Virus record (IMG/VR): IMGVR_UViG_3300013093_000019
Coordinates: 62,001-126,000 of that record
Strand: one strand, 5' to 3'
DNA from: a virus
DNA: 64,000 bases
Shown here: positions 1,969-53,900 of the stretch, piece after piece
Position numbering within the stretch: the first letter of the stretch is position 1
Layout: each line of letters starts with the position of its first letter
Notes under the pieces: generated by a model
What the model saw: the letters and a program-made list of their open reading frames with translations, nothing else
The model's database searches: none
What the model was told of the DNA's origin: nothing
Made by a program: the position numbers and the translations under genes

Positions 1969-4900
1969 TTACGTACTTAGAGCTATCCTTTGAGCATTTA
2001 CAACCATGTTAGTTGGTGTATAACTTGGAGTAAATTGTAGCAAGATGTTACCTCCTGAGTACACAGCGTTCCAGGTACCTAGTTCTGTTGTATTATAACC
2101 TAACCCGTATTGGATGATATACGGAATAGTTATTAATCCGTTGTTATCATGGAACACCATAATTTCTTCAACATGCACTTTGCTTGGAGTAAATCCGCTA
2201 TCAACCACCTGTACAATATATTTGGCTGTTCTATAAGTCAATGCTGGGTAACTATCTACTGTAATTACAGCATTAGAGTTAGTGCTTGCACCGAGTGTCG
2301 ATGCCGCAACAGCCGCAGAACCAATTAATACTGATTGTGTAGCATAAACATTGCCACCTACCCATACGTCTTGTCCAACCCCTACACCGCCTGTTACTTG
2401 TAAAGCTCCAGAGTTGGTGCTTACAGCATTTGACGAGCTAGTAATTGATACAGTATATGGTGTTGTTGCGCCACGGCGTGTTACTGTTTGTAAGTTTGCT
2501 GTGTTAGTTACCGTTACAGTACCTGCACCCGGATAAGATCCTGTGCCGGAAATACTAATATCTGTACCTGCTTGAACAGCAATTACACCTGTGTTGCTGA
2601 CTGTTACAGATCCAGTGTTTGCTGTAACAGCAATACCTTGACCTTGTTGGATATTGGCAACGGTATTAGTTGTTACATAAGAAATCGTAGCAACCTGTAA
2701 TCCTTGAGCATACACATTACCTGTAGCATAAATTGTTCCAGCACCAATACCGCCATTAGGTACTTGTAATGCGTTGCCAGAAATACTGTTACTGCTTGAA
2801 GAAGCATTAGTAAAGTAAGTTACGTTATTAGTTGTAGCACCGCGATTAGTTACTGACTGTAGTGTTGCTGTGCTGAATACTGTGATAGCACCAGTTGATC
2901 CAGTTACGGCTGTGTCAGTTCCTGCAGAAATACTTGTTACGCCTGCATTATTAACAGTGAATGACATTGTACCGTTTGAAGTACTTACTGATGAAATAGT
3001 AATTGCTGTACCAGCAACAGGAGTTACGTTTGTAATTACACGAACACCGTTGTCAAATACGTTAGTTGCATTAACACGTAATGCACCAATTGACCCTGCA
3101 ATAGTTAACGCATTGCCTGTTGATGTAGTTGTACCTAATGAATTATTAGATACTGTAAGTGCATTGTTAGTTGTTGCACCGCGGCCTGTTACTGATTGTA
3201 ATGTGCTAACATCATTAACTGTTATAGATCCTGTTGTAGCACTTAAGGTGATATCTGTACCGCTAGCAAGGCTAGTAACACCCATGTTAGTTAATGTTAC
3301 AGCACCTGTTGGTCCTGTAATTGTACCGCCACCGCCTAGTCCGTTGCCTGCTGTAACAGTTACGCTAGTAATTACACGGTTGCCGTTATCAAATAATCCG
3401 CTAGCCGCAACACTTAATGCACCAATACCACCTTGTACAATCAATGTTTGATTGCTTGATGTGCTTACTGGATCATTTGCGCCATTAGTTAGTGTAATAA
3501 CTTGATTAGTTGTTTGGCCGCGCTGTGTAACAAGTTGTAGTGTGTCAATACTTTGAATATTAACTGTGCCTGTTGACTGGCTTACAACGATACCACTACC
3601 TGTAGTAATCTGTTGAACACCTAAGTTAGTTAATAGTACTGATCCTGTTGATGCACTCACACCTAAGTATGTTGTTCCTTGGATACTGTTTACACCGTAA
3701 TTGAATATTGATACAACTCCGTTTGAAGTTGTTACATAAATTCCAGAATTGCCACCAGCGATACTTGTAGCCGCATAAGAACTAATACTTGCTGTAGTAA
3801 TTACAGCTTGGCCACCAATGTAAGCATTACCGCCTACATATAAATCTTGTCCGATACCTGCGCCACCACTTACCTGTAGGTCACCCGAGTTGGTAGTTGT
3901 AGCATTTACACCGCCTGAAGCATAAAGTGTACCTGCTCTGAACGCACCTAAGTTAGATGCAGCGAATGTTGTTGTAGAAGATGCACCACTTCCATACCAA
4001 TGTAATTCGCCGCTAGCATTATCACGTACAAGGGCAGCGTTATCGCTAAGACCGCTCTTGTAGTAGTGCATTTTGAAACCAATGTCTAAGCCGTCATCAG
4101 TAGTCCACATGCCCATCGGACCGCTAGGTGGAACGTGGAGATCAACTAAGTTGTCAGTATAGTAAGTGTTTGTTGACGAAACATAAGTTGATGTACCAAT
4201 GAATGACGCATTGCCAACAACAGTTAAGTTACCGTAAATTGTACTATTGCCACCAACGTTTAAATTCTTAGAGATACCAGCACCACCTGCAACGGTTAGA
4301 GCACCGTTGGTCATTGTTGTTGACTGAGTTACGTTGGTAATGCTAATAGCGTTACTAGTTACAGATCCTCTGTTGGTCACAGATTGTAATGTAGCTGTTG
4401 AACTAACTGTTACAGTACCTGTGTTTGAACTTACTGCTAAATCATCACCTGCTGTTAAGGTTTGTACACCTAAGTTATAGATGATAATATTACCAGTTTG
4501 ATTGTTAACTCCGATGTAAGTTGAACCGTTAAGCTGTGTAACACCTGTATTGGTAATTGTTATGTCGCCAGTTGGTGCAGAAACGCTAATTCCAGAACCT
4601 GCTGTGATTGAACTTACACCTAAATTTCCTAATGTTGCTGTAGTAACAACCTGAGCACCATTAGACCACATGCTTCTAGCCCAAATATCGCGTCCAACAC
4701 CTAGACCGCCTGTGATTACTAAAGCACCTGTTGTTGTGCTTGTGGCATTTGTTGAGCTTGTGATGCTTAATGAGTAAGGAGTTGTAGATCCTTTATATGT
4801 TACTGAGCGGAATGTTGATGTGTCGTTGATTGTTACGACACCGCTTCCTGGATATGTGCCAGTGTAATCAATTGATACATCAGTACCTGCTACGATAGCA

Positions 4901-9532: not shown

Positions 9533-12500
9533 TTATTCAATTGCCAATATGAACGGAGTCATATTCGCAAATAATGATTTTGTAAATGTTCTTCCTGATA
9601 ACACACCAGTTGCCTGGCTAATTACCAATCCTGGGCCAATACGGAAGTCACCGTTTTGGTCAGTTGATGTAAAGAACACCTTACCGTTGTTCAACTGAAT
9701 TGTTTCTTTTGTTTGAACAACGTCAGCTTTACCTCTTTGCGGTAAAGCACCGTAGTTTGTACCAGCACCTACATACTCAAACAAGTAACCAGAAGCTGAT
9801 TGATATGAGCGTTGATAGAAATTAATAATAGCACCGTCTGGGAATAATCCTGGATCAGTTACTGCTTCTTCTAAGTTAACAATATGATGTGTGCCATGAG
9901 TAGCATAATAGCTTTGTCCTGCAACAACCGCATTGTAGTTTCCGCCATTAGCTAAATCATATACTAGGGCATCAACGATTAATCCAACGTCACGTTTACA
10001 TTTTGCTACATTGTATGAACCAAATGCTTTGTTGATATATGCAATAGTTTCTGCTTGCATAAATGTTCTGTTGGCTTTTAGTATTGCGGCTGCATTAATC
10101 ACTGACTGAGTTGAACTCATGTTCAAGTTAATTGGTCTCTTAGGTAATGGTGCTTTTGGACCATTAGTAATAATACCTGTCAAGATATCAACGTTAATTT
10201 GTGCAACTTCTGCCCATTCAACATTACCAGGAGTGCCACTAGTTACTTGTGATACTGTTCCTTGGTATGTTGATGGTAGTGGAACACCTTCTACAATATT
10301 TGGCAATATTGATTTAATATAGTTGTACGCAGCCACTGCCTGTATTTGTTCACCGGGTAATGCTGTTGAACTTGCATTGAATCCATAGTAGTAAGTACCT
10401 GCCTGTACAGCTTGACGATTACCACCGTATAATAAGTCAATACTAATTGCATCAATCATGTATCCAACATCGCGATAACATGTTTCTGAATTGTAATTAA
10501 ATCCACTAGATTTAATTGCGTCAACATACGCAACTGCTTCTGCTTGGATATATGCTTTGTTTGCTTGCAAGTTTTCAAATGCTACATTAACGTTGAAACT
10601 TCCACTCGGAGTTAAGCTGTTTGGTACAATTAAATCTGTTACACCGCTTGTTCCTGTGTTTAGAATCTGTAGAATAACATTGAAGTCTGCGCCAATCGCA
10701 GATGCTTCTGCTGATGTTGCAGGACTTAATGATGTAGATTGAGTTGCGATTGACTGATAACGTGGACCAGATGTATCGTTCAACACAATTTTCTGTGCTA
10801 GATTTTTAACGTAGTTGATAGCGGCTGTAGTAGTTGTTAGTTCACTTGCAATAGCACCAACGTATCCGTTGTGATTCCAATACTGTTCGCCTGCAAAATA
10901 AATTTGACTGAAGCTGTTAAACGCTAAGTCTTGTGCGATCGCATCAACAATCAATCCTGTATCACGTGAGCATGTTGCTGTGTTGTATACAAATCCTGGG
11001 AACGCACTATTGATATACGCATTTGTTTCAGCAATAATAAAGTTTCTATTTTGTTCAATCATCATAGCTGAATTTACAGCGTTGATGTCTGTGCAAGTTG
11101 TTACTGGCAACGGACCGTTGACAACATATGGACCATTGTTTATAATATTAGTAATCAAATTAAGTCTGTCAGCAACAATAGTTGATTCTGCACTTGTACC
11201 TTTTGGTAAGTATGCAATTTGTGTAACAGTTGATTGATATGTTGTTACAGTCTCGCCTCTAATAATTTGATCAGCAATAATGCTTAGGTGTTGATATGCC
11301 GCTGTTACTTCTGGTAGCTCATTTGATACTGAACTTGAAGTTGTGCTGTAACCGTAATAGTAAACAGCACTTTGAATTGCCTGACGGTTGCCGCCATATA
11401 ACAAGTCAAAACTTACAGAGTCAATGATGTATCCTACATCTCTATAGCAAGTTGCTGTATTGTATGCAAATCCAGGAGTCTTAGTTGACTCAACAAACGC
11501 AACAGCTTCACTTTGGATGTACTGTCTGTTAGCTTGCAACAAGTTATATGAGTTAACCACGTTGGCATTAGTGCTTGTTGTGATTCCATTAGGGACAATT
11601 AAATCTGTTACACCAGCTGTACCTGTGTTTAATATTGATAATATTAAATCAAAGTCTGCACCAATAGTGTTAGATTCATCAATAGTTCCTGCGATACCTG
11701 TAATTTGTGTTTCTGTACCATAACGAGTACCACCAGTAATATTTTGAATTACCTGTTGTGATAATGTTTTAATATAAGAAATCGCAGCTGTCGTTGTAGT
11801 AATTTCTGAACCAATAGCACCAGTGTAACTTACTTGATTCCAGTATTGGATACCAGCAAATGTTGATTGGCTATCTGTTAAGAATAATAAGTCTTGTGCA
11901 ATAGCATCAACAATCAATCCTGTATCACGGTAGCAAGTTTGTTGATTATATGTGAATGGCGGATATGTGTTATTAATGTATTGTACTACTTCATCTTGTA
12001 TGAACGCACGGTTATCATTTAACAAGCTGGCCGCTTGTGATGCACCTGTTGGTAATGTTCCACTAGTTGTTACTGTTGGAGCACTTGAGTATCCGTTTAC
12101 TAAGATACTACCGATGATGTTTAAATCGTTTACAATGAATGATTCTGCACCTGCACCACCGACTAAACTCAAGTCGTACACTTGTGTAGTTGCTGTTTGC
12201 AATGGAGTTACAGGAGTATTAGAAATAATATAAGAAGTTAATGTTCCTAAGAATCCTAATGCCACATCTTCTTGAAGATTTTGTACTCCTGGAAGCAATA
12301 GTGTACCTGGAGTAATTGGATCTGGTGCTACAGTACTTGACAGTACTGTGTAGTACGCATTACCAGATGTATATAGATTGAAGTAGTTACTGTTATTAGG
12401 ATCGCCACCACCACTATTCAATGGATAATTTAGTGTAACGCTTTGATACGCTACATCAGCAACGATTGTACCAGGAGTTACATAAGGTTGGTTATTTGCA

Positions 12501-15500
12501 TCTACTTGGAGACCGTATTGGTCAACTACATAGAAACTTTGACCTACAACCATTCCTGTATTATCAATACCAGTAATTAAAATTGTTCCTGTTGTAAGAA
12601 CTCCGATGTTTGTATTACCTGTTAAGAAACCAGGAAGTCCTTGATAGTTTTTATAACCTTCTGGTGGCTCAACTTCCATAATCAATGAAATGTGTGGACG
12701 TAGGCCTGGATCAGCGATATAAACTTCCACGCTACCGCTCTGTGGGTATACACCGTTTGGATAATATGGAGCCACTGGTGGATTATAAATGTAACCACTA
12801 AATTCTCTTGTTCCATAGCCCTTAGATACTAAGCATTGATCACCAAAGTTGGCGTTAGAGTTAGTAATAGAAGCGATACCACCGTTCTCTGTTAATACAG
12901 CGGTTGAACAGAAGATCGTAAACACAGAAACTAACTGTGCGTATCCGTTGTTGTTAATGTGTATACCGATACCGCCCTGGTTAACTTGAGTAAACGCATC
13001 AAACACGAAAGAGTTAATTGGTGAACGAGCTGAAACTACAGCACCGTCTACAAGAGCACCGCCCATAGATCCATATGGATTAATACGGCGTTGTTGCCAA
13101 CGATCTGGAATAGCACTATCTAATAGTGGGAACACCAGTGTATCACCAAAGTATAAAGTAGTACTATCACCATAACCAACAGTACTTTGACTTAGTGTCA
13201 CTAGATATGTTCCAGTAGTTACTGTTGTTACTGAAGTTACGGTTGGAGCAATTCTTACGTCATCTCCTACAAGACCAGTATAGTTATAAATTCCGTTACC
13301 TTGTGTGCTTGTAGGTGCAACACCTGGACCGTTATTAACAATATTTGTAATTAAATCAAAGTTACGTGTTACAGATAATGTAGCGTTAGCACCTTTGTTA
13401 TAGAATGTGTTAATAACCTGTTGATTAGATACGATTGTTGCATCAACAAACGCAATAACCTCTGCTTGTATAAATGATCTATTTGCTTCTAGTAGTGCAA
13501 CTGCATTATTAACAAACGCATTATTGCTTTGTACAAGACCAATAGGTTTCTTAGCTGGTGCTGATGCAGGACCATTATTGATGATAGTAGTAATTAATTC
13601 AACATTAGTTGCGATTGAGGCTGCTTCATTTGATGTCGCCGCAGGTAAATTAGTTACCTGGGTAACCGCTGTTTGATAAGTTAGTGGCAACGGTGTAGCT
13701 GTTACAATACTTGAGATAATTTGACTCATGTAATTGTATGCTTGTGTGGAAGCATTTTGCTCTCTTGGCAAACTTGTGCTGGTATTATTGTAACCCCAAT
13801 AGTATACACCTGATTGAATTGCTTGACGATTACCGCCATATAACAAGTCAAAGCTCACACTATCAATAATATATCCTATATCTCGTTGGCATGTTTCAAC
13901 ATTATAGTTGAAAGCAAAGAATTTATTGATATAAGCAATTACCTCAGCTTGGATGAATGCCTTGTTAGCTAAAATGTTAGTTGCAGCTATGATTAAATTA
14001 CCGTCTGATGTTTCAGATAGTCCAATTGGTTCTTTGTACGCAACTTCGCTTGGTCCATTTTCAAGAATTTTAATAATTCTATCTGTTTCAGCGCCAATGC
14101 TATTGATCACTGAGCCATTTGCACTTATTAAATCAGTAGTAACTTGCGCCACATCTGTTTGTTGAGGAGTGATAACAATATTTTGTGCAATAGATTTAAC
14201 TAGAGTGTCAAGATATTGATAAGCTGCGATAGTTTGCGGAATTTCTCCTGCAATCGAAGTTGATGTGCTATCAAATGTATAGTAGTATACACCTGATTGA
14301 ATTGCTTGACGATTACCGCCGTGCAATAAGTCAAAGCTCACAGAGTCAATCATGTATCCAACATCGCGATAGCAAGTATCTGGATTGTAAACAAATCCGG
14401 CTGTCTTAGTTGCTTCTACAAATGCTACAGCCTCTGCTTGAATGTATGCTCTATTTGCTTGTAGTAATGTATAAGCACTATTAATGTTTGTAGATGTTGA
14501 TGCAGAAATACCGTTAGGAACGATTAGATCAGTTACACCAGATGTTCCAGAATTAATAATATGAGTAATTAAATTAAATTCTGTTTGTAATATTGTTGCT
14601 TCAGCTGTTGTGGCAGCGGTTCCTGTAACTTGAGGTACAGCATTTTGATATCTTGTACCTGCTGTAATATTTTGAACCACAGCTTGTGCTAGATTACTTA
14701 CGTAATTAATTGCGTTAGTTGTTGTTGTTAACTCATTACCAATAGAGCCAATGTATCCGCTGTCTTGATTCCAATATGACAATGCCGCAAAAGTTGCTTG
14801 ACTAGATCCATGTGTTGATGGATATAACAAGTCAAAAATAATACTGTCAACGATCAATCCTGTGTCGCGACTGCATTTTGCTTGATTATATTTGAAACTC
14901 TTATTAGCTTCAATCCATGCAATAACTTCTGCTTGCAGATATGACTTATTATTTTGTAGTGCTGTGAAAGCATTAACAACATTATAATCTGTGTTTGCTG
15001 TAAATCCGTTAGGAATAATTGTATCTGTAATTCCTGTCACGCCATTTGTTAAAATGTTTGTGATAACTGAAAACTCGTTAGCCACTGTAGATTTCTGTGC
15101 GTTAGTTGCAGGAACTGTAGCCACTTGTGTTACTGTATTTTGATAGCGTGGTCCTGAGAAATCATTAAGAACAATTTTTTGAGCAACGCTACTGATATAA
15201 TTCAATGCGGCTGTTGTTGTTGTGATTTCATTTGGAATGTTTCCAACATAATTACCGTGGTTCCAATATTGGATGCCAGCAAACGTACTTTGGCTGTTAC
15301 CGCCAAATAATAAATCTTGAGCCAGTGCATCAACAATTAATCCAGTGTCACGAGCACATTTAGCAGATGTAAATGTAAATGCTGATGTAGTAACTGTGGT
15401 ATTGTTGATAATCTGTAATGCCAATGATTTAGCGTAGTTCAGTGCAGCTGTTGTTGTAGTTAATTCTTTAGCTACAGAGTTAACACCACCGGTCCAGTAT

Positions 15501-18500
15501 GTAAGACCTGCTTCAATAGATTTAGCATTAGCATTTAAAATAATGTCTTGACTAATCGCGTCAATAATTAGACCAGTATCTCTATAGCATAGATCTTCTC
15601 TATAGATAAAGTTTGGAAAATTATCATCTACCCAGTTAATAACTTCAGTTTGAATAAATCTTCTGTTAGCCTGTAATAATACTTCAGCACTTACAGAACC
15701 CCAATCTGGTCCGTTTCCTGTTTGTACCGGAGGAGCCACAGATGGACCATTTTGAATAATATTATTCATAACACCAATTAGTTTTGTTACTAACGGTGCG
15801 GCTGTTGAACCATTAGTCAACACATAGTTAATAACTTGTGGTGCTGTTTGATATGTGTTTAATAAATTAGTTGCTGTAACATTGGCTAACACATCAACCG
15901 CAAGTTCCCCTAGATATGTAAAGGCATTTGTAGTTGTTGTGATTTCGTTTGGAATATAACTTGTTACACCATTCCAATAAGCAAGACCTGCTTCAACAGT
16001 TTTTGCATTTCCACCAAAGGCAACGTCATAGGCAATGTTTTCAACAACAAGACCAATATCTCGTTTACATTTTGCTCGGTTATAGACAAAGCCTTGATTA
16101 AACAAGTTAGTGTAAGCAATAGTTTCTGCTTGTATAAATGCTCTGTTAGCCATCAACATGTTGTAAGCATACGCTGTGTTAGGATCAACACTTGGTGTTA
16201 GGCTAATTGGAGTTTTAGATCCGGCAACTGAAGGGCCATTATTAATAATGTTTGTGATATTATCAATTAAACCGTAAGCTGTTGTAACTACTCCAGAGCT
16301 TGCTGTTGACAGCGCAGTAACTTGTGTAGAAGTATTTCCTGTTGTTGGATTAACAGTTTGACCAGTTAGGATTTTTCCAATAATATTTTTAATATGATCG
16401 TATGCCGCGACTACTTGAGGAACTTCGTTTGGTACCGCTGTTGAATTAGCATCGTACGAATAATAGTAAACACCTGCTTGGAAGGCTTGGCGGTTACCTC
16501 CATGAACAAGGTCAAAACTGATGCTGTCAATAATGTATCCTACATCGCGATAGCATGTTGCGTGATTATAGTCAAATCCAGGATTGTTTGCAGCCACCCA
16601 TGCAACAATTTCTGCTTGCATAAATGGTTTGTTTGCTTGTAGCAAGCTGTAAGCATTTAGAATATTTGTTGAAGTTGTTGCTATACCGTTTGGAACTATG
16701 GAGTCTGTTACTCCTGCTGTTCCAGTATTCAAAATGTTTATAATGTAATCAAATTCTTTACCAACAGTAACTTGTTCTGCCACGGTAGCAGCACTGCTTA
16801 ATATCTGCGTTACTGTATTTTGATAAGTTGTACCTGTTGCATTAACAATAATTGATTGAGCAAGTTGTTTTAGGTATTGGATCGCATTAGTTGTAGTTGT
16901 AATTTCTGCACCAATGGCACCTGTATAGCCTAAGTCTTGATTCCAATACTGCAAGCCTGCAAATGTAGTCTGACTATCACCTGCATATAATATGTCCATC
17001 GCGATAGAATCAACAATCAATCCAGTGTCACGATAGCATTTAGGTTCATTGTAAGCAAACTTATTATTATAGAATTGATCAACGTAGCTGATTACTTCCG
17101 TGATAATAAATGCTCTGTTAGCTCTTAAAATAGCAGCCGCATTTAAGATGTTAGTGTTAGCTGACTTAGTTACACTAATTGGTTTAAGAGTTAATGCAGA
17201 ATTAGGACCAGCGTTAATAATTTCTGTAATTAAATTAACCATTGACTGTAATGTCTGTGCTTCACTACTTGTAGCCGATGGTAAGCTAGTATTCTGTGAG
17301 CTAAGGTTACCTTCTGATTTTGTAATAACTTGGTTGATTACAATTTGTGATACAATATCTTTAATTCTATAATAAGCCGCAGTTACTTGTGGTGCTTCTG
17401 AAGCAACAATGCTGTCAGTGTCAGAGTATCCATAATATAAAACAGCACTTTGAATCGCTTGGCGATTGCCACCGTAAAGAATATCAAATGATACGCTGTC
17501 AATAATATATCCTATGTCGCGGTAGCATTTTGTTTGATCATAAACAAATCCAGGATTAGCTGCGTTAACATACGCAACCGCTTCTGCTTGGATATATGCT
17601 TTGTTGGCTTGTAAAGTGTTAAATGCGTTTTGTGCGTCAGCTGAAACAACTGTTATGCCATTTGAAACAATTTGATCTGTTACGCCTACAGTACCTGAAT
17701 TTAAAATATTAATAATAGTTGTAAATTCACTAGCGATAGTTGCCGCAGACTGTGTTGACGCCACACCTAATGTCTGTGTTAGTGTTGATTGATAGCGAGG
17801 ACCGCTTGTATTATTAGCAACGAGTTTTTCTGCTAAAATTTGTACATAGCTTAGAGCATTTGTTGTAGTCGATAACTCGTTGCCAATTTGTCCTGTATAT
17901 CCTTGTTGGCTCCAATATTGTAAACCTGCAAAATTGCTTTGTGTATATCCGTTACCACCAAACACTAAGTCAGCAACCATACTGTCGATGATTAGTCCAG
18001 TATCTCTAATGCAATTTTCTTTGTTGTACCCAAACAAAGTATTATTTTCATCGACATACGCAATTACTTGTTCTTGGAAGAAAGGTAAGTTAGCTAACAG
18101 TAATGTTCTTGCATTTACATAATCTTGAGGTGTTGGGCCAACGTTTACTGAATGCCCAACTTGGATTGTTCCTTCACTAACACTTACTGTAATTGATGTA
18201 GTATTAATCGCCCATGTACCTGTACCTACTGCACTTGGAAGCTGTACTGTAGAGTTAGGAAAGAACATTGTTCCATCCATTAACCATGGACCAGATTGGT
18301 TTGTACAGTTTTGAATATATGGTGAGTGGAATACGTCAATCTTTGTTCCGCCATAGTTAGGTGGAAACGCCGCACAGTATGCGCCACGGTTAGTGCCTGG
18401 AGTATAACCAGGACCAGGTAATAAACCTGATTGACCGTTTAAGAACTGCATCTGTGCAAGATAGTTACCTGATTGCACATGGAATAAGTCTTGAGTCTTA

Positions 18501-19396
18501 TTAATTGGCTCAATACTTGTTGTACGCAAGTCAGAACCGATAACTGAAGTATAAGGTTTTAATTCAATTGGATTATTTTCGTAGTAGTGACCTGGTGCAA
18601 CTTTAATACTTGTACCGTATTTGTAGTAAGGAGATTTTACTGCTCCGCCAATTGTACGGCAAGCACGGCTAGCATCTGCAGCACGACCATCATTAGTGTC
18701 GTCGCCGTCCATGCTAACATATAAAATATTTGAAACTGTTGGACTTGTACCTAGTGGATTATCTCCCCAAATGCGTACAGGACCATTTAAATTAATTGTT
18801 GGATTAACAATAGGACCTACATTGATATCACTACCTGTGCGGTCTAGTTTTTGACCAATGTTAATTTCTTGGCCGGTGAATCCTAATATTGAATCAGCTA
18901 CTACGTTATTAAAATAACCGTTAGCCCATGTCTTATCTGCACTACCTAGATTATAATTATCAGGTGTTTGTGGAATAAGATCTGATGTAAAGTTAGCGAA
19001 TACGCTAACAGTATCTGTACCAGTAATGTTACCAATTTGTACATTACCGTCTGCTGTAATGTTTCCAGTAGCGTGGATATTTCCAGTAACTTCTACTGAA
19101 TTTTGTAAACGAATTTTCCCTTCAGGTCCTGCAGAGATGAATACATCACCAACAGTATTAGTGATACTGCTACCTGTAATTACAAAATTCGCTAGGGTTG
19201 ATTTTTGTGGAACAATTAGATTTTGTAGTGCGGCTGTGCCGTTAACATCTAATTGGTATTGCGGAGTCGCGGTACTGATACCAATGCGGCCATCAATGAC
19301 GTCAAGGAATAATAAATTAGTTTCAAATGCTAGGTCAACGCCATTACGGATAAGGTTATCCGCAAGCATTGGCCCCGTAATGCGACCTACGGCCAT
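9533..19396 (-). CDS. giant modular virion protein, 3287 aa, split beta-helix
   Basis: Residues 1-220 are fibre-like (ITGPMLADNLIRNGVDLAFE, IGISTATPQYQLDVNG). A pectate-lyase-like beta-helix starts near 223 (ILYVSMDGDDTNDG) and reaches SPYIQNCTN near 360. It resumes only near 2109 (GGALVDGAVV, FDAFTQVNQGGIGIHI, NGYAQLVSVFTIFC). Between the halves lie ten copies, and after the second half five more, of a roughly 160-residue helical module marked by C-x-R-D-x-G-x-I-x-D. Two module types alternate: one with STFAGIQYWN and ITTTTAA, the other with GGNRQAIQSAVYYYG. The C-terminus (NGDFRIGPGLVISQATG, SGRTFTKSLFANMTPFILAI) is a conserved ending of marine T4-like structural proteins. It has its own late promoter and a GAGG ribosome site. 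Probably a long fibre or baseplate appendage; enzymatic activity is not shown. Confidence 0.8.
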   Translation of the reverse strand: MAVGRITGPMLADNLIRNGVDLAFETNLLFLDVIDGRIGISTATPQYQLDVNGTAALQNLIVPQKSTLANFVITGSSITNTVGDVFISAGPEGKIRLQNSVEVTGNIHATGNITADGNVQIGNITGTDTVSVFANFTSDLIPQTPDNYNLGSADKTWANGYFNNVVADSILGFTGQEINIGQKLDRTGSDINVGPIVNPTINLNGPVRIWGDNPLGTSPTVSNILYVSMDGDDTNDGRAADASRACRTIGGAVKSPYYKYGTSIKVAPGHYYENNPIELKPYTSVIGSDLRTTSIEPINKTQDLFHVQSGNYLAQMQFLNGQSGLLPGPGYTPGTNRGAYCAAFPPNYGGTKIDVFHSPYIQNCTNQSGPWLMDGTMFFPNSTVQLPSAVGTGTWAINTTSITVSVSEGTIQVGHSVNVGPTPQDYVNARTLLLANLPFFQEQVIAYVDENNTLFGYNKENCIRDTGLIIDSMVADLVFGGNGYTQSNFAGLQYWSQQGYTGQIGNELSTTTNALSYVQILAEKLVANNTSGPRYQSTLTQTLGVASTQSAATIASEFTTIINILNSGTVGVTDQIVSNGITVVSADAQNAFNTLQANKAYIQAEAVAYVNAANPGFVYDQTKCYRDIGYIIDSVSFDILYGGNRQAIQSAVLYYGYSDTDSIVASEAPQVTAAYYRIKDIVSQIVINQVITKSEGNLSSQNTSLPSATSSEAQTLQSMVNLITEIINAGPNSALTLKPISVTKSANTNILNAAAILRANRAFIITEVISYVDQFYNNKFAYNEPKCYRDTGLIVDSIAMDILYAGDSQTTFAGLQYWNQDLGYTGAIGAEITTTTNAIQYLKQLAQSIIVNATGTTYQNTVTQILSSAATVAEQVTVGKEFDYIINILNTGTAGVTDSIVPNGIATTSTNILNAYSLLQANKPFMQAEIVAWVAANNPGFDYNHATCYRDVGYIIDSISFDLVHGGNRQAFQAGVYYYSYDANSTAVPNEVPQVVAAYDHIKNIIGKILTGQTVNPTTGNTSTQVTALSTASSGVVTTAYGLIDNITNIINNGPSVAGSKTPISLTPSVDPNTAYAYNMLMANRAFIQAETIAYTNLFNQGFVYNRAKCKRDIGLVVENIAYDVAFGGNAKTVEAGLAYWNGVTSYIPNEITTTTNAFTYLGELAVDVLANVTATNLLNTYQTAPQVINYVLTNGSTAAPLVTKLIGVMNNIIQNGPSVAPPVQTGNGPDWGSVSAEVLLQANRRFIQTEVINWVDDNFPNFIYREDLCYRDTGLIIDAISQDIILNANAKSIEAGLTYWTGGVNSVAKELTTTTAALNYAKSLALQIINNTTVTTSAFTFTSAKCARDTGLIVDALAQDLLFGGNSQSTFAGIQYWNHGNYVGNIPNEITTTTAALNYISSVAQKIVLNDFSGPRYQNTVTQVATVPATNAQKSTVANEFSVITNILTNGVTGITDTIIPNGFTANTDYNVVNAFTALQNNKSYLQAEVIAWIEANKSFKYNQAKCSRDTGLIVDSIIFDLLYPSTHGSSQATFAALSYWNQDSGYIGSIGNELTTTTNAINYVSNLAQAVVQNITAGTRYQNAVPQVTGTAATTAEATILQTEFNLITHIINSGTSGVTDLIVPNGISASTSTNINSAYTLLQANRAYIQAEAVAFVEATKTAGFVYNPDTCYRDVGYMIDSVSFDLLHGGNRQAIQSGVYYYTFDSTSTSIAGEIPQTIAAYQYLDTLVKSIAQNIVITPQQTDVAQVTTDLISANGSVINSIGAETDRIIKILENGPSEVAYKEPIGLSETSDGNLIIAATNILANKAFIQAEVIAYINKFFAFNYNVETCQRDIGYIIDSVSFDLLYGGNRQAIQSGVYYWGYNNTSTSLPREQNASTQAYNYMSQIISSIVTATPLPLTYQTAVTQVTNLPAATSNEAASIATNVELITTIINNGPASAPAKKPIGLVQSNNAFVNNAVALLEANRSFIQAEVIAFVDATIVSNQQVINTFYNKGANATLSVTRNFDLITNIVNNGPGVAPTSTQGNGIYNYTGLVGDDVRIAPTVTSVTTVTTGTYLVTLSQSTVGYGDSTTLYFGDTLVFPLLDSAIPDRWQQRRINPYGSMGGALVDGAVVSARSPINSFVFDAFTQVNQGGIGIHINNNGYAQLVSVFTIFCSTAVLTENGGIASITNSNANFGDQCLVSKGYGTREFSGYIYNPPVAPYYPNGVYPQSGSVEVYIADPGLRPHISLIMEVEPPEGYKNYQGLPGFLTGNTNIGVLTTGTILITGIDNTGMVVGQSFYVVDQYGLQVDANNQPYVTPGTIVADVAYQSVTLNYPLNSGGGDPNNSNYFNLYTSGNAYYTVLSSTVAPDPITPGTLLLPGVQNLQEDVALGFLGTLTSYIISNTPVTPLQTATTQVYDLSLVGGAGAESFIVNDLNIIGSILVNGYSSAPTVTTSGTLPTGASQAASLLNDNRAFIQDEVVQYINNTYPPFTYNQQTCYRDTGLIVDAIAQDLLFLTDSQSTFAGIQYWNQVSYTGAIGSEITTTTAAISYIKTLSQQVIQNITGGTRYGTETQITGIAGTIDESNTIGADFDLILSILNTGTAGVTDLIVPNGITTSTNANVVNSYNLLQANRQYIQSEAVAFVESTKTPGFAYNTATCYRDVGYIIDSVSFDLLYGGNRQAIQSAVYYYGYSTTSSSVSNELPEVTAAYQHLSIIADQIIRGETVTTYQSTVTQIAYLPKGTSAESTIVADRLNLITNIINNGPYVVNGPLPVTTCTDINAVNSAMMIEQNRNFIIAETNAYINSAFPGFVYNTATCSRDTGLIVDAIAQDLAFNSFSQIYFAGEQYWNHNGYVGAIASELTTTTAAINYVKNLAQKIVLNDTSGPRYQSIATQSTSLSPATSAEASAIGADFNVILQILNTGTSGVTDLIVPNSLTPSGSFNVNVAFENLQANKAYIQAEAVAYVDAIKSSGFNYNSETCYRDVGYMIDAISIDLLYGGNRQAVQAGTYYYGFNASSTALPGEQIQAVAAYNYIKSILPNIVEGVPLPSTYQGTVSQVTSGTPGNVEWAEVAQINVDILTGIITNGPKAPLPKRPINLNMSSTQSVINAAAILKANRTFMQAETIAYINKAFGSYNVAKCKRDVGLIVDALVYDLANGGNYNAVVAGQSYYATHGTHHIVNLEEAVTDPGLFPDGAIINFYQRSYQSASGYLFEYVGAGTNYGALPQRGKADVVQTKETIQLNNGKVFFTSTDQNGDFRIGPGLVISQATGVLSGRTFTKSLFANMTPFILAIE
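9930..18040 (-). repeat. 15-copy coding repeat, C-x-R-D module array
   Basis: Fifteen in-frame copies of a module of about 160 codons, each with a Cys-x-Arg-Asp-x-Gly core. Ten copies precede and five follow the resumed beta-helix segment of the same gene. DNA identity is locally high: a 37-base stretch is identical at 13801-13837 and 14284-14320. Confidence 0.85.
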
Positions 19397-27375: not shown

Positions 27376-28440
27376 TTATAGTTTCTTGTCAACTACAGAC
27401 TTAGTATTTGTACTACCGCCTGTTTGACCTGCTTTTTCGCCACCAGTCTGTGCACCAACGCCGTGACCTTCGCCACTTGCTGGTTTCTTAGCTGTGCTAA
27501 AAATGTTCTTTGTAGAACGGCTTGATTTCTCAACGTTTTCAAAGTCACCCATGTGTGGAACGTCAGCACCTTTCTTCAATACACCACCTAACTTACCGTG
27601 TGGTTTTTGACCGTCTTCGTCAGCACCTTTACCAGCTTGTGCTATGTTTTTAGCATTTGCACCGCTTGTTGGTTTACCTGAACCAGAGCTGATTGGGCTC
27701 TTGCCACTATCGTGACCTGTTTGTCCAGCTTTATCACCACGACCTGATCCAACGCCTTCACCGTCTGCCATTGTTACAGCAACTTTTTCGATGTATTCGC
27801 GCATCATTTCGCCTTGTGACTTAGCTCCGCGGCTTTCTTTCATGCTTTCGCCCTCGTCGTCTTCTTCACCTTCTTCATCACCTTCTTCGTCGTCTTCGGC
27901 ACCGCCGTCAACATCATCTAAAGGATCATGGCCAGTTTCGTCATCATGAACGCCTGGTTCGTTTTCTTCTTCATTGCGCTCTGCAGACATAAGAGCTTCA
28001 AATTCAGCTTTTAGTTCTTCTAGAGCATCTTCAAGATCTTGTACGTCATCTTTAGTAGCTGGAGCTGTGCCGTCGCCACCTTCGTCGCCGCCAAATTCAT
28101 CGTCGCCGCCCATAGCATCGTGATCCATTGTATCACCTTCTAGGTCGTCTGTTTTATCTTGAATTGGGAATTCGTCTTCTTCTTCTCCGAACATTGATTC
28201 TACAGTTTCGTCTTCTACAGACTCTTCTACAGACTCATCGTCTTCTTCTTCAGCGGCTTCTTCCATAGATTCATCATCTTCTTCAGATGCTTCGTCCATT
28301 TCCGCTTCTTCTTCTTCAGCGATAAGATTTTGGTATATTTCTCGTGACTTCTCTACAACGATTTCATGAAAAAGCTCATTGGCTTTATCAGTTTCTTCGT
28401 TTACTAGATAGTCCAGTAATTGTTCAAACTTTGTTGACAT
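27376..28440 (-). CDS. acidic prohead core protein, gp67-like with long extension
   Basis: I chose ATG at 28440 (MSTKFEQ) because AAGGAG stands nine bases before it; a TTG 30 bases upstream would place that site inside the gene. The first 50 residues (LLDYLVNEETDKANELFHEI, VEKSREIYQNLIAEEEE) align in pattern with T4 gp67 (helix, then an acid tail). Here the acid region runs for about 150 residues with long Glu/Asp runs, and a Gly/Ser/Lys-rich basic tail follows (KPISSGSG, GKLGGVLKK style). At 354 residues it is over four times T4 gp67 (80). It lies between gp20 and gp21, the gp67/68 position. It is inferred to be an internal core protein trimmed by gp21. Confidence 0.75.
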   Translation of the reverse strand: MSTKFEQLLDYLVNEETDKANELFHEIVVEKSREIYQNLIAEEEEAEMDEASEEDDESMEEAAEEEDDESVEESVEDETVESMFGEEEDEFPIQDKTDDLEGDTMDHDAMGGDDEFGGDEGGDGTAPATKDDVQDLEDALEELKAEFEALMSAERNEEENEPGVHDDETGHDPLDDVDGGAEDDEEGDEEGEEDDEGESMKESRGAKSQGEMMREYIEKVAVTMADGEGVGSGRGDKAGQTGHDSGKSPISSGSGKPTSGANAKNIAQAGKGADEDGQKPHGKLGGVLKKGADVPHMGDFENVEKSSRSTKNIFSTAKKPASGEGHGVGAQTGGEKAGQTGGSTNTKSVVDKKL

Positions 28441-28550
28441 GTGATTTTTCTCCTTAGTATCAGCAGGCAAGGCTGTGTATTATATTTACAGCACTATTGA
28501 ATTACTTATGCGAAATAGGCCAAAAATCGATCGTTTTGGCTCAAACGAGA

Positions 28551-28854: not shown

Positions 28855-30582
28855 TTAGGCTGGTGGAGTGCTTTGAGGAGCACTAGGACTTGCTTGACCT
28901 GCTCCAGGAGCAGCTTCAGCACCCATATCATCTTCCATACCTTCTGGAGGTTGACTTAGGTCGTCTATATCACCTAGATCCTGCTGGGCGCCAGCAGATG
29001 TAACACCTGCAGAACGTAATTCAGCATTAGCATCCATCTTGCCTTTGTTGCTTTCTAGGTTTTCTTCTTGCCACATTTCTTGGTTTTCTGCAATTTCTTC
29101 TGCTGTTAAACCTAGGAAACGTTTCATAGCAAAGCGTTTGCTCATGAACGGAATTCCAACCATAGTACCAAATGTACCTACACGGGCTGTATCCATTTCT
29201 GCTTGGCGATAAGACGCAAAGTTTTGTGGTGGATTAAATTTAACGTCGAATAAATTAGGATCAATGTTGATACCGCGTTGGTTCAAGTATGCCTTAAACT
29301 CGTTGTTAAATTGTTCGTTTAATAGTGATTGTAGTCTTTCGCAGTATTTGTTGAATCGTAATTCTTGTATGTAAGCTGTTCCCACTCGGCCATCGTTAAA
29401 ACTGCTACCGCCATCATCTGGACCAGTAGGTAAGTAACTGGAAGGAATACGAAGAGCCCTAAACAACTTATTAGTAAAATATCGTAAATCATCAATTTCT
29501 CCTAAGTTCGTACCACCCGGTAATAGTTCTACTTTAGAGCCACGACCTTCTGATGTTTGTGGGAAGAAGTAATCTTCATTGATGCTTAGTGGATTGTAAC
29601 TAGCGTCTATGACGCTAGTGCCACCGCCTGTTAAAGACGGTATACGGCGCTGGTTAACTTCGTTCTTAACACGTTCAACAAATCCCATAGCCAAGTGACT
29701 AGGCATGTTACCTACGTCAATATAGAACACTCTACGCTCTGGAGCACGTTGCACACGATAGATAATAATAGCGTCTTCAAGCAATTCTTTTTGCTTATAG
29801 ACTTTGAAAATTGACTCTAAAAGTGAATTTCCAAAAGGAAAGTTGTTGTCTAAACCTTCACTCATTGACAAATGAATGACATGTTTTGCGTCGATTGCGT
29901 ATTGCTGTTGGTTAATAGCAAAGCGTCCGCCGTTATTTGCTTGGTTATATGTACCTACCATACCACGTTGCTGTGCGTTATTTGTAGTAAAACCTGAACC
30001 GCCAGGACCGCTTGTTTGGTTTGTAGGTGTGATTTGTGTAACTGTTAAGTTCTGTAGGTTAATGTTTAGATCACGGACAACATACTGTTCAGGTTGTTTG
30101 CCGTCACTTTCATTAACAATGATCTTGTCAATCTTAGCAGGATCAATGTATAACCATGCTAGAGTTTCTGGATCACGTATAAAGAATACGTCACCGTATT
30201 TGAACGCATTACGTACTAATTTAAAGATACGTTTAGGAAATTTGTTTAGCTTAGACCACTGTTGTAGGTACTTCTTAAGGATCTTAACTTCAGTTGAAGT
30301 AGCATTTTCTTTAAAGAACAGTTCAAACGGAGTACCGTTTTCTTCGTTCATTTGTGTACAGAATTCAGCTAGAATATCTAAGGCTGCATTAACTTCACTG
30401 TCGCTGTCCATAGTGTCATATTGACCATATCGTTCTAAACGATTTGGATGTCCTGAATAAACATCTGGCAAATATGAACTGTAGTTTGTGCGAGTAGGAT
30501 TTGCTCTGCTTCCTCCAGAACCACTGATAGGGCTTAGTGTACCTTGTGTATTAACAGGAGTGAAGTACTTTTTCCAACTCAT
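28855..30582 (-). CDS. 20: portal vertex protein gp20
   Basis: Forms the dodecameric portal through which DNA enters and leaves the head, and starts prohead assembly. The core signature EDAIIIYRVQRAPERRVFYI followed by DVGNMPSHLA is close to invariant in gp20. FKYGDVFFIRDP, QQYAIDAKHVIHLS and LLPGGTNLGEIDDLRYFTNK are further conserved blocks. At 575 residues it is near T4 gp20 (524). A Gly/Ser/Thr/Asn-rich patch near 190-225 is a variable surface loop. The C-terminal 60 residues are Ala/Pro/Gly-rich low complexity (GAGQASPSAPQSTPPA), probably disordered. AAGGATAATTT precedes the ATG, nine bases after the tape-measure-like gene. Confidence 0.96.
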   Translation of the reverse strand: MSWKKYFTPVNTQGTLSPISGSGGSRANPTRTNYSSYLPDVYSGHPNRLERYGQYDTMDSDSEVNAALDILAEFCTQMNEENGTPFELFFKENATSTEVKILKKYLQQWSKLNKFPKRIFKLVRNAFKYGDVFFIRDPETLAWLYIDPAKIDKIIVNESDGKQPEQYVVRDLNINLQNLTVTQITPTNQTSGPGGSGFTTNNAQQRGMVGTYNQANNGGRFAINQQQYAIDAKHVIHLSMSEGLDNNFPFGNSLLESIFKVYKQKELLEDAIIIYRVQRAPERRVFYIDVGNMPSHLAMGFVERVKNEVNQRRIPSLTGGGTSVIDASYNPLSINEDYFFPQTSEGRGSKVELLPGGTNLGEIDDLRYFTNKLFRALRIPSSYLPTGPDDGGSSFNDGRVGTAYIQELRFNKYCERLQSLLNEQFNNEFKAYLNQRGINIDPNLFDVKFNPPQNFASYRQAEMDTARVGTFGTMVGIPFMSKRFAMKRFLGLTAEEIAENQEMWQEENLESNKGKMDANAELRSAGVTSAGAQQDLGDIDDLSQPPEGMEDDMGAEAAPGAGQASPSAPQSTPPA

Positions 30583-50400: not shown

Positions 50401-50930
50401 TGTCAGGAGCTACAGCAACATTGCCGCTAGCTCCTACTAGTTCTAGTTTAGAAGAAAATTTTGCTAACGCTCTAGAACCAATTAAATCTATTTCTGATAC
50501 GATTGTGTATCGTCCTGCTAGCTATAAGGTATTATTTGGATCAAAAGCAGATCCAAATCTACAAGCAACATTTAAGGCAGTTTCAAATCCTGGTGTAGTT
50601 ACAAGTACCAACGATTTAACTACTAGAATTTTAGCTGCGATTAATAGTTTCTTCAGCATCGACAACTGGACATTCGGCCAATCATTTAATTTTGGTGAGC
50701 TGGCCACTTATGTTTTAAATACAATGACACCAGATATTGTAAACTTTGTAATCGTTCCAAAGAATGCAAGTTTACCTTTTGGTAGCCTATACGAAATTTC
50801 ATGTCAATCAAATGAAATCTTAATTAGTGGGGCGCAAGCTACCGATATTGAAATCATTGATGCACTTACAGCCGCATCTATAAATTCAACTTCACCTATT
50901 ATTACTAATACAAATGGAACTGTTTACTAA
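47475..50930 (+). CDS. 6: baseplate wedge protein gp6, long form
   Basis: The N-terminal 200 residues carry the gp6/J-like signature: DFDTLRRTMITYLRETYPEE, EYIALIDLIAYLGQNLSFRI and DLNARENFLETAQRQDSVLR. T4 gp6 has 660 residues; here 1151, with a large beta-rich middle (for example TVFELSGAAFSGQTYVYETP-type strands and FYRQSNGRTYSITPDQMAGI) and a conserved C-terminal block (FGQSFNFGELATYVLNTMTP, FVIVPKNASLPFGSLYEISC) where gp6 forms its dimer contacts (by analogy with T4). gp6 links the wedges into the baseplate ring. It ends in TAATG shared with the giant gene downstream. Confidence 0.9.
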   Translation: MIPATNSQLLVAEDWTKIYQSFRNADFQSYDFDTLRRTMITYLRETYPEEFNDYIDSSEYIALIDLIAYLGQNLSFRIDLNARENFLETAQRQDSVLRLAQLISYNPKRNIPASGLLKISAISTTDNIFDNNGLNLANQVIGWNDPANANWYQQFVSILNSAMPNGTSFGTPSDSAVVNGVSTDQYQVNSTNVDVPVYTITKPINGIPTTFELSGAAFSGQTYVYETPPKPAESFSYIFQNDNKGAGSANTGFFTYFRQGTLASTRFSINNPVANEIIGINANGINNDDVWLWQLDANGNYKTLWTRVDALVGNNVIYNNIANNTRTLYTVTSRANDQIDLNFADGSFADLPKGNFVLFYRQSNGRTYSITPDQMAGINITIPYVNKSGVAQKLTLTLSLQYTVTNSSGPESLASIKQNAPQTYYLQNRMITGEDYNIAPLSISNDILKISSVNRISSGISKYFELSDISGQYSSTDIFAKDGIIYREEAQPSFDFSFQTANDVYAAINSQLAPIIRSNTFKNWYFSTDFYPRPQLSLLNYQWNKTTVTTAQTTGYFQDQFSGSPVQLGYFSNNNATYITPGAMIKFKAPIENGVQKYFTADGTLTINPDSTTSLFMWDTVINVVGDGSNQGKGNLVTGIGPVVLSGKIPSGAIPVEVIPTLITTLSVAFQAQIAVLCLSQQNFGLSFDKNTRQWFIIVNSNLDMTSPFSLTYQGDTANIQKDASWLILFAWNGSNYTVSYRLLNYIFESANQTAFFVNYDNNNYDYVNGRTIKDQIDVLSVNSLNTSTTALGVDYRWQIESSVVEFDGYVEPKKVVIGFYDANNDGQIDNPDAFNIIVDPNSVNAQTSYNDKFVYFQLSSDGNRYSIVDTSITPVHAYPNEDAAFAAYVSTPSVEPLSADTLYYFYQPDVIKNFDPTSRTFVLNTGYFAKSGRANIKFHYQHNTGEERRLDPSKTNIIDIYILTNSYDSAFRSYLSGATATLPLAPTSSSLEENFANALEPIKSISDTIVYRPASYKVLFGSKADPNLQATFKAVSNPGVVTSTNDLTTRILAAINSFFSIDNWTFGQSFNFGELATYVLNTMTPDIVNFVIVPKNASLPFGSLYEISCQSNEILISGAQATDIEIIDALTAASINSTSPIITNTNGTVY

Positions 50931-53900
50931 TGGCAAGTAACGATATTAATAACCCTGTTGACGTTAACAACCCGTCTAACACTCGTCGCTCATCCGACCT
51001 GTTGCCTGGCTATCTAAGAACAGATAAAAACACTAAATTCTTAGCAAGCACATTAGATCAATTAATACAACAACCTCAACTAGAGCGTATTAACGGATTT
51101 ATGGGAGATAAATTAACTCCAACATATAATCCTGAAACAGACAACTACATTGATAGCGGTACTGCTTTAAGAAACGCATATCAGTTACAACCATCTCTAG
51201 TTGTTAAAGATCAAAATAATCAGTTCAGTTTAAGTTCTGGGTTTGACGATTTAATCAATCAATTAAATTTCTACGGAGCAAACACAAATAATCTTGACAG
51301 ATTGTTCCGTCCTCGTTCGTATTCATACGATCCAATGATTGATTGGGATAAGTTTGTAAATTTCCGCGAGTACTATTGGTTGCCAACAGGTACTGATAGC
51401 GTAGAAATCACAGGTCAACAAAAACAAACACAAAGTACATATACCGTTACAGATAGTTCAGACGGTCAGGGACTAGTATTCACTCCTGACGGCTTAACAA
51501 GTAATCCTTTACTAACATTATACAGAGGATTAACTTATGTATTCAATGTTAACAGTAAGTATCCTTTCTATATTAAGACAGCTTATACTAAAACTGTAAA
51601 TGATTTATATTCTAATGCGACAGGCAACGGTACAGCCAATGGACAAGTTATACTAACCATTGATAATACAACTCCTGACATATTATTTTATTTTGCACAA
51701 GGTAATGCAAATGCCGTTGGACAAATTAATGTTAAAGCATTGGCAGAAGATACAGTAATTGATATTGAAAAAGATATTATTGGTAAGCAATCTTATATTT
51801 CAGGTAATGGAGTTACATTTTCTAATGGAATGAAAATCCATTTTGCTGGCGCAATAACACCTAGCACATATCAAGATAAAGAATTTATTATTGAAGGTGT
51901 AGGAACTGCGATCAAATTAGTTGACTTTGATAGTTTATCTAACGCAGGTCTTGTGATCAATACACTAGATACAAACTTTGATGCTACTCCTTTTGATCAA
52001 TATCCGTTTGATGATTTTGCGAATGTTCCATTAGTTCCTGAATACGTAACAATTAATCGTGCTTCTAAAGATAAAAATCCATGGAGCCGTTACAATCGTT
52101 GGGTTCATGCTGACGTAATTGCTGCTGTGGCTGAAGTAAACGGAGTTCCTCCTGTTTATGATACAGCAATGAGAGCACAACGTCCTATCATTGAATTCCA
52201 GCCAGACATTCAATTATTCAACTTTGGTGCAAACAGTAAACCTAACGTAGATTTAATTGATACTGTAACTAAAGATGCTATCGCTACATTTGAAGGTTCA
52301 CCTGGATTTTATATTGATGGTGTATTAGTTGAACAAGGATTTAGAGTTATTTTCAACGCAGACACAGATCCTTTAGTTAAAGGTAAAGTATTTGAAGTTA
52401 AGTATGTAACCGCTGGAAATAATGTTATTGTTAACCTTGAAGAAGCGGCAGACGCCGATCCTTCACTTAACGATTCCTTAGTAGTAACAAGAGGTACAAG
52501 CTATCAAGGCACAAATTGGTGGTATGATGGAGTAGTATGGCAATTCGGCCAACAAAAAACTTCATTAAATCAAGCACCATTGTACGAGTTATTTGATAAC
52601 AGTGGCAACAAGTACTCTGATCAAACAATCTATAATAGTTCTTTCGTAGGTACAGCAATATTTGGTTATACTCGAGGAACTGGAACAGCAGATCCTGTTT
52701 TAGGATTTCCGCTAACATATAAAAATGTTTCTAACGTTGGTGATTATTTGTTTAGTAATTTTTTCACAACAGATACATTTACTACTTACGACTTAGGAGT
52801 ATTAAGCACACTATCAGTTGCTGACGGTTTCTTAAAAGTCAATAACGACAACGGTGAAGAATATAGAAACGTTTGGATTAAATCAAACGATAAAGCGATT
52901 CCTATTTTACAATTCCAAGTTGTAGAACAAGCCACACCTTATATAGAAATAAATGCGATCGATGATGCAGGATTTGCATCCGACCTTGCTGTAGATGTTT
53001 TTGTTAATAATGTAAAAATTATTAATAATGTTGACTATACTATTGGTCAGAATCTCAACAAAGCATTTATTGTTCCAACAAATGAATTTGCATCAGGCGA
53101 TGCTGTGCTGTTTAAAATATACACAGCTCAACCTGCAAACAGCAATGGATATTACGAACCGCCAATTAATTTAACTAACAATCCGTTGAATGGTCCAATC
53201 GGTTCATTTACATTTACAGAATTAAGTGACCATGTGTCTACTATTGTAGAAAATAATGATTTGTTTGTAGGATCATTCCCAGGTAATAGTAATTTAAGAG
53301 ATTTATCAAATCTAAGCGCATACGGTTCACGTTTAGTTCAACATATTGATCCACTAGTATTCGCACATTACTTTTTAGGTAACCAAAAAAATAACATTGT
53401 TGATGCTATTAGAAAAGTAGCATTTGATTACAACCAATTTAAAACTAGTCTTATTAAACAAGTTACTGGGCTAACAGAAGTTTATACTCCTGCCCAGGCG
53501 TTAGATATTGCATTAACAAATTTAAATTCTGGAAAAGATTTAACATTCCCGTACACCTATACTGATATGTTGGGCCACGGTAATAATTATGTTGAACGTG
53601 TTTATACCGTTACTAATAAGCGAGTAAAGAACTTTAGTTTAATCAGCTCATTTGATCAGACAGTATTAAGTGAACGTGCTATTTTAGTTTACCTTACATC
53701 AGCAAGTGATTCAACAAAGACTCCTGTGTTGTTGACTAACGGATATGATTATACTATCGATCCAAACATCGCTACAATTTATGTTAATGCTACTATCTCG
53801 GTTGGCGATGTCATTACCATAAGAGATTATACTAGTACTGTTGGATCTTATGTTCCACCTACACCAACTAAGTTAGGGTTATATCCAGCATTTAAACCTA

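Follow-up and report, generated by a model that had tools for sequence, protein, structure and literature searches.

Phycobiliproteins are light-harvesting proteins, and the N-terminal X-Y helical hairpin of their subunits serves alpha-beta assembly. The insertion of domains into phage fibres is also already known. In the CXRD motif of phycobiliproteins, the bilin is attached to the Cys at the Cys84 position and kept in place by the Arg and Asp, and bilin-binding globins with CXRD occur in heterotrophs too (PMC10151467). The bilin biosynthesis-associated globins (BBAGs) (Rockwell et al. 2023, PMC10151467) are, like the phage modules described below, phycobiliprotein relatives found outside cyanobacteria, some of them with CXRD; different from these modules, with which we compare them by description, BBAGs are cellular proteins located beside pre-PcyA genes. 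Furthermore, bilin enzymes of freshwater phages are known, and the accessible part of the report on them leaves their purpose open, names bilin-binding globins as one possible partner, and mentions no acceptor protein for the phage hemO-pcyA/pcyX cassettes (PMC11480375).

As regards the fibre, two sets of cyanophage proteins share the beta-helix considered here, whose two parts we call half A and half B. PSSM2_293 of P-SSM2, gp329 of S-SRM01 and gp224 of S-CAM9 contain half A, half B and a C-terminal domain in the same order as the protein of our study, but the A/B junction has no insertion and no modules were found genome-wide. The long tail fibre of S-SCSM1 (gp026), gp261 of ACG-2014f, gp088 of ACG-2014e and SfFR1_80 of Sf-FR1 present the same beta-helix with a large module-bearing insert which, different from that of our protein, lies before the SPYIQNCTN strand rather than after it and contains few recognisable modules.

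In the window, that is, the whole stretch of 64,000 nucleotides analysed, a single giant ORF (Table 1) contains all 18 of the module matches found in the 151-kb record to which the window belongs. Its assignment as a tail fibre relies on matches to sequence families (PHROGs 17885, 5342 and 4527), and these features are best explained if a large freshwater T4-like phage encodes here a protein of the tail-fibre/baseplate type, probably a component of the virion. Taken as a whole, we consider it best explained as a fibre-type protein with one DUF1565-type beta-helix into which variable arrays of phycobiliprotein-related modules have been inserted, a reading to which we assign a probability of about 0.72.

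Table 1. Features of the giant fibre-type ORF, with positions in the window
Feature	Residues	Position	Strand	Basis or remark
Giant tail-fibre-type protein P0001	3287 aa	9533..19396	(-)	One open ORF; PHROG tail fibre families 17885, 5342, 4527
N-terminal region	1-215	18752..19396	(-)	Outside the beta-helix; profile finds a counterpart in only some relatives
Beta-helix half A	216-366	18299..18751	(-)	Profile match E 2e-69; SPYIQNCTN at its end
Insertion 1	367-2100 (1734 aa)	13097..18298	(-)	Gap from A to B; includes beta-stranded flanks on either side of the array (strands from the L018 model)
Module array 1	424-1992	13421..18127	(-)	Ten phycobiliprotein-like modules and a fragment; profile matches
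Dimodule, types a+b	748-1071	16184..17155	(-)	Piece taken for structure prediction
Beta-helix half B	2101-2204	12785..13096	(-)	GGALVDG...; profile match E 2e-49
Module array 2	about 2450-3180	9857..12049	(-)	Five modules, matched at 2452-3176; profile matches
Conserved C-terminal domain	3188-3286	9539..9835	(-)	Profile; also in module-free cyanophage relatives

The sequence-only reading of this DNA had described a beta-helix with its first half at about residues 223-360 and its second at about 2109-2172, split by an insertion of about 1750 residues with ten helical modules. The profiles place the halves at 216-366 and 2101-2204 with 1734 residues between them, and we counted ten full or near-full modules, one of them shortened, plus the fragment; its layout was thus accurate up to half B, but it lacked the second array between half B and the C-terminal domain, the C-terminal domain itself, the identity of the module family, the length variation and the earlier insertion site used in marine cyanophages. 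The Cys of the CXRD motif occupies residues 462, 624, 787, 948, 1110, 1270, 1347, 1508, 1675 and 1836 in the first array and residues 2488, 2650, 2809, 2973 and 3133 in the second.

As regards the genomic context, a plain cyanophage origin of the window is too simple, given that its portal protein (28855-30582, minus strand) is nearest, at about 50%, to those of jumbo T4-like phages of Proteobacteria (PA5oct, Atu_ph07 and Phosso), with cyanophages less close, and that no psbA was found in the record. Contigs of the relatives reach 355 kb. A search of 22 records gave no AmoC/PmoC, but it missed its control as well and carries little weight for or against a PmoC phage. Downstream of a baseplate wedge gene, the window also presents an ORF of at least 4357 aa (50930-64000, plus strand) that runs past the window edge, and short tandem repeats of 18 to 36 bases occur at 28082-28319 within the ORF 27376-28470.

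When each half was searched alone, the same cultured-cyanophage genes were retrieved at adjoining places, namely, 215042-215416 and 215366-215704 in P-SSM2, 212582-212953 and 212975-213247 in S-SRM01, and 83565-83942 and 83964-84248 in SynMITS9220M01. In particular, in the 617-aa protein of P-SSM2 the last residue of half A is 182 and the first residue of half B is 183, and the halves adjoin likewise in S-SRM01, S-CAM9, SynMITS9220M01, AG-345-F15, AG-345-L05 and AG-345-O18. Among the 8 phage records, the distance from A to B varies between -1 and +4 aa, in agreement with the earlier statement that the two parts lie close together in marine phages; in S-RIP2, 23 aa separate A from B. A second scan of IMG/VR gave 25 loci; in the 17 that are distinct and complete, the halves lie -1 to +1 aa apart. 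The comparison with cyanophage homologues that had been proposed thus revealed that homologues devoid of the insertion exist and that A and B are contiguous there (P-SSM2, S-SRM01 and at least 20 others), which bears out the claim of one split beta-helix. Moreover, conservation in the joined A+B block of the module-free relatives runs over both halves as one block, and this block matches DUF1565 and pectate-lyase-like families, in agreement with the fold originally proposed: PF07602 was matched by 12 of 15 module-free homologues (best 1.6e-5) and PF12708 also by 12 of 15 (best 3.8e-4), the first member shown reaching 20.1 bits against a cut-off of 20.3. The window's own halves reached no match in Pfam, and the beta-helix profile A2 found none in the PDB.

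A two-module relative (L018, 1200 aa), folded whole and template-free (pLDDT 69.9, pTM 0.52), presents beta strands, including strands that flank the module array. A viral DUF1565 protein of 442 aa was aligned to this model by Foldseek in such a way that it spans the insertion (873 columns, target TM 0.51); for a protein of 442 residues, such an alignment needs a gap about the size of the module block. We regard the split as well supported, with a single solenoid running through both halves as the probable fold.

The site of insertion differs between two lineages. In the window and in the related freshwater proteins, the insert comes after the SPYIQNCTN strand, whereas in S-SCSM1, ACG-2014e, ACG-2014f and Sf-FR1 it precedes that strand, i.e., it lies one turn earlier, and contains modules of the same family as those of the window. 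Each site being empty in the other lineage, the simplest explanation for modules at both is that an older beta-helix acquired them independently, with a polarity that we infer from an unrooted tree; modules at two different places of the same beta-helix also speak against ancestral modules between unrelated halves, the opposite case that had been raised. In ACG-2014f gp261 (L088:14938-26841), about 3440 aa are inserted, with only two recognisable modules, located near the ends of the insert. AG-345-D19 was considered as a one-module intermediate and rejected, its 355-aa insert lying at the earlier site and having no detectable module; the locus (L082:9968-13012) shows different cargo at that site.

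Among the 80 relatives retrieved with half A, the inserted freshwater proteins present A-B gaps of 438 to 2393 aa at one site, with 2 to 14 modules; gaps of about 440, 795, 1100, 1415, 1580, 1740, 2070 and 2390 aa correspond to 2, 4, 6, 8, 9, 10, 12 and 14 modules, respectively. The number of modules is even in 50 of 55 distinct inserted proteins (including L022, for which the gap length suggested 5 but a count gave four), and odd counts in the first array are rare, with one clade of 9 modules; in the second array the count is usually odd (1, 3 or 5). In the unrooted tree of A+B, the module-free proteins form a single branch (support 100/100), and the module number needs about 22-23 changes or more. 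The modules of the window fall mainly into types a and b, both used in both arrays, with identities of 50-69% between b modules, 42-64% between a modules and mostly 29-45% between a and b. A strict a/b alternation along the arrays is not general, and identity shows no peak at lag 2. The highest number of modules seen (about 20 matches) occurs in a 3849-aa ORF of a 328-kb relative (G040:C1:315553-325527), which also has a bilin reductase.

At the level of sequence, the modules, of about 161 aa, are distantly related to phycobiliproteins and bilin-binding globins. A PDB search with a stretch of window modules as a single sequence gave three matches with E<=1, all phycobiliproteins, and a profile of 97 modules gave six with E<=10, each of them phycocyanin alpha (best 0.025). 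In Pfam, PF00502 was found in 22 of the 97 modules and any other family in at most 2, while in NCBIfam phycocy_alpha ranked first (11/97). Alignment of the modules to 64 phycobiliproteins with hhalign had a probability of 87.5 and a score of 41.8, compared to a maximum score of 20.7 (probability 2.9) over 100 column shuffles and to 0.09 for the reversed profile. Furthermore, a phycobiliprotein HMM run on 4026 phage ORFs gave 75 matches with E<=1, all 75 to module proteins, of which 80 exist; its E-values (best 3.6e-15; window protein 5.5e-8; one match at 0.64 in the reversed database) sum over repeats that are not independent, and single modules score weakly (best in the window 0.065).

In an alignment with four phycobiliprotein sequences, of which phycocyanin alpha is identical to PDB 8wql, module residues 1-143 pair with phycocyanin residues 35-162, colinear from helix A to helix H, the similarity being mostly in helices B-E. 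Modules and phycobiliproteins (PF00502; phycocyanin alpha and others) share profile similarity, the helix order A-B-E-F'-G-H and CXRD at Cys84. However, different from phycobiliproteins, the modules show no X-Y hairpin in the alignment, which begins at phycocyanin residue 35, present a loop in place of helix F, occur in tandem inside a fibre, and are only putative bilin carriers. Since a search of ten cyanobacterial genomes with the module profile matched no phycobiliprotein, the kinship is remote.

With the template-free L018 model, phycobiliproteins headed the Foldseek list, with a probability of 1.00, a target TM of about 0.6-0.74 in many cases and an rmsd of 4-6 Å for several chains. With the model of the a+b dimodule (pLDDT 94.9, pTM 0.90), phycobiliproteins filled most of the list, but with E of 0.3 or worse, target TM of about 0.3 and rmsd of about 17 Å, so that in the prediction the local structure matches phycobiliproteins and the global packing does not. 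The packing of the modules may be swapped or otherwise different; helix swapping between neighbouring modules, or an unnatural cut of the array, would explain the poor superposition. The model supports the dimodule as one rigid unit, which would fit the pair-wise changes of length. The rank-1 PDB match of this model (m8fdf08ace86f) was a weak one (E 0.26, probability 0.25) to a baseplate chain of Agrobacterium phage 7-7-1 (9rku).

These results bear on the alternatives to a split beta-helix carrying phycobiliprotein-related modules. Given the metagenomic origin of the sequence, one might suspect that a single contig was misassembled or contains a fused gene, but dozens of independent contigs, obtained from many samples, present the same architecture with differing numbers of modules, which refutes this explanation with near certainty. 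It is improbable, too, that the halves are separate beta domains, neighbours by accident, joined by the modules as an ordinary interdomain linker: even though the extra strands on both sides of the insert in the L018 model could close each half separately, the junction has zero residues in module-free relatives, where both halves are conserved as a single block, and the 442-aa viral protein aligns to both over the insertion. Rather more weight, while still unlikely, goes to the modules being a mere helical spacer that resembles phycobiliproteins, by chance or convergence, around one C-x-R-D helix. The remoteness of the similarity, the poor superposition of the dimodule and the absence of phycobiliproteins among the module-profile matches in whole cyanobacterial genomes would agree with such a spacer; on the other hand, phycobiliproteins are singled out by profile tests in both directions, by two family libraries, by the column shuffles and by the template-free model, and the alignment with phycocyanin is colinear from helix A to helix H.

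A further alternative goes beyond kinship and supposes that the tail fibre carries covalent bilins, the CXRD modules being working bilin-binding globins and phage heme oxygenase and reductase making the pigment; in that case the arm would have a colour, sense light or protect against it, or the bilin would act as a structural cofactor. We regard this as doubtful. In its favour, the motif is kept in 624 modules (C 95%, R 98%, D 99%), each module of the window contains one CXRD Cys (15 of the 21 Cys of the protein), and this near-invariant Cys falls on Cys84 in all 11 full-length modules of the window that were aligned with the phycobiliprotein profile, accompanied by the Arg and Asp which in phycobiliproteins keep the bilin in place. 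In two relatives of the window (L014 and L012), a heme oxygenase gene overlaps a bilin reductase gene; modules are also present in all five contigs of 140 kb or more that were selected by their reductase, and the reductase in five of the eight relatives of 200 kb or more that were chosen by module or portal. Against it, no heme oxygenase, CpeT or bilin reductase was found in the window's own 151-kb record, the co-occurrence in freshwater is explicable by shared ancestry, and modules and reductase are not associated in marine cyanophages. Indeed, a general link between the two fails in cyanophages, each trait occurring alone: the reductase without modules in P-SSM2 and four other marine cyanophages, and the modules without reductase in ACG-2014e/f, Sf-FR1 and DSL-LC03. 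The overlapping gene arrangement in some relatives of the window is like that of the hemO-pcyA/pcyX cassettes (PMC11480375), whereas no such genes were found in the window's own record. In relatives, at L207:4541-5750 and L208:4414-5602, the overlapping heme oxygenase/bilin reductase genes lie downstream of a small heat-shock-type protein, with a ClpS-like ORF in L207.

The conservation of CXRD points to selection on the pocket region, either for a ligand or for structure; a bilin or some other small molecule in the pocket is no more than a possibility. It is still less likely that large freshwater phages and some cyanophages bear tandem bilin-binding globins on their fibres, with pigment made for the virion itself where the enzymes are encoded, and thus a pigmented or light-responsive adsorption arm.

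Returning to the inserted arrays as such, we consider the following the most likely way in which the arm works. The core would be one pectate-lyase-like (DUF1565-type) beta-helix, common to marine cyanophages and acting as a rod; in the freshwater lineage, an array of modules of about 161 aa would have entered the loop after one strand, and a second array would have been inserted before the C-terminal domain. The arrays would exit the rod at surface loops as side arms, lengthening or shortening mostly by whole pairs of modules while leaving the helix undisturbed, and arm length would follow module number, changing reach or contact area without remaking the fibre. From the topology, the fixed sites and the variation in length, we lean moderately toward a looped-out side arm of this kind, its length set by module number, with a role as reach, spacer or contact surface in adsorption.

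In the literature searched, which comprised few subscription journals, we found no expandable array of phycobiliprotein relatives inside a beta-helix, and titles and abstracts contained nothing relevant on bilin or phycobiliprotein modules in tail fibres. The identity of the modules is a larger result than the split beta-helix itself. With these modules, a probable virion protein contains a branch of the bilin-globin superfamily in which the chromophore motif is retained. Moreover, the fixed site with pair-wise changes of length provides a clean natural series for relating arm length to host contact. Finally, the modules are candidates, open to testing, for the acceptor of the bilins that can be made by freshwater phages, and may give a first clue to the purpose of these pigments, which is stated to be open (PMC11480375); if the supposition of bilin-carrying fibres were true, the phage-made pigment would serve the virion, as a pigmented or light-responsive adsorption arm.
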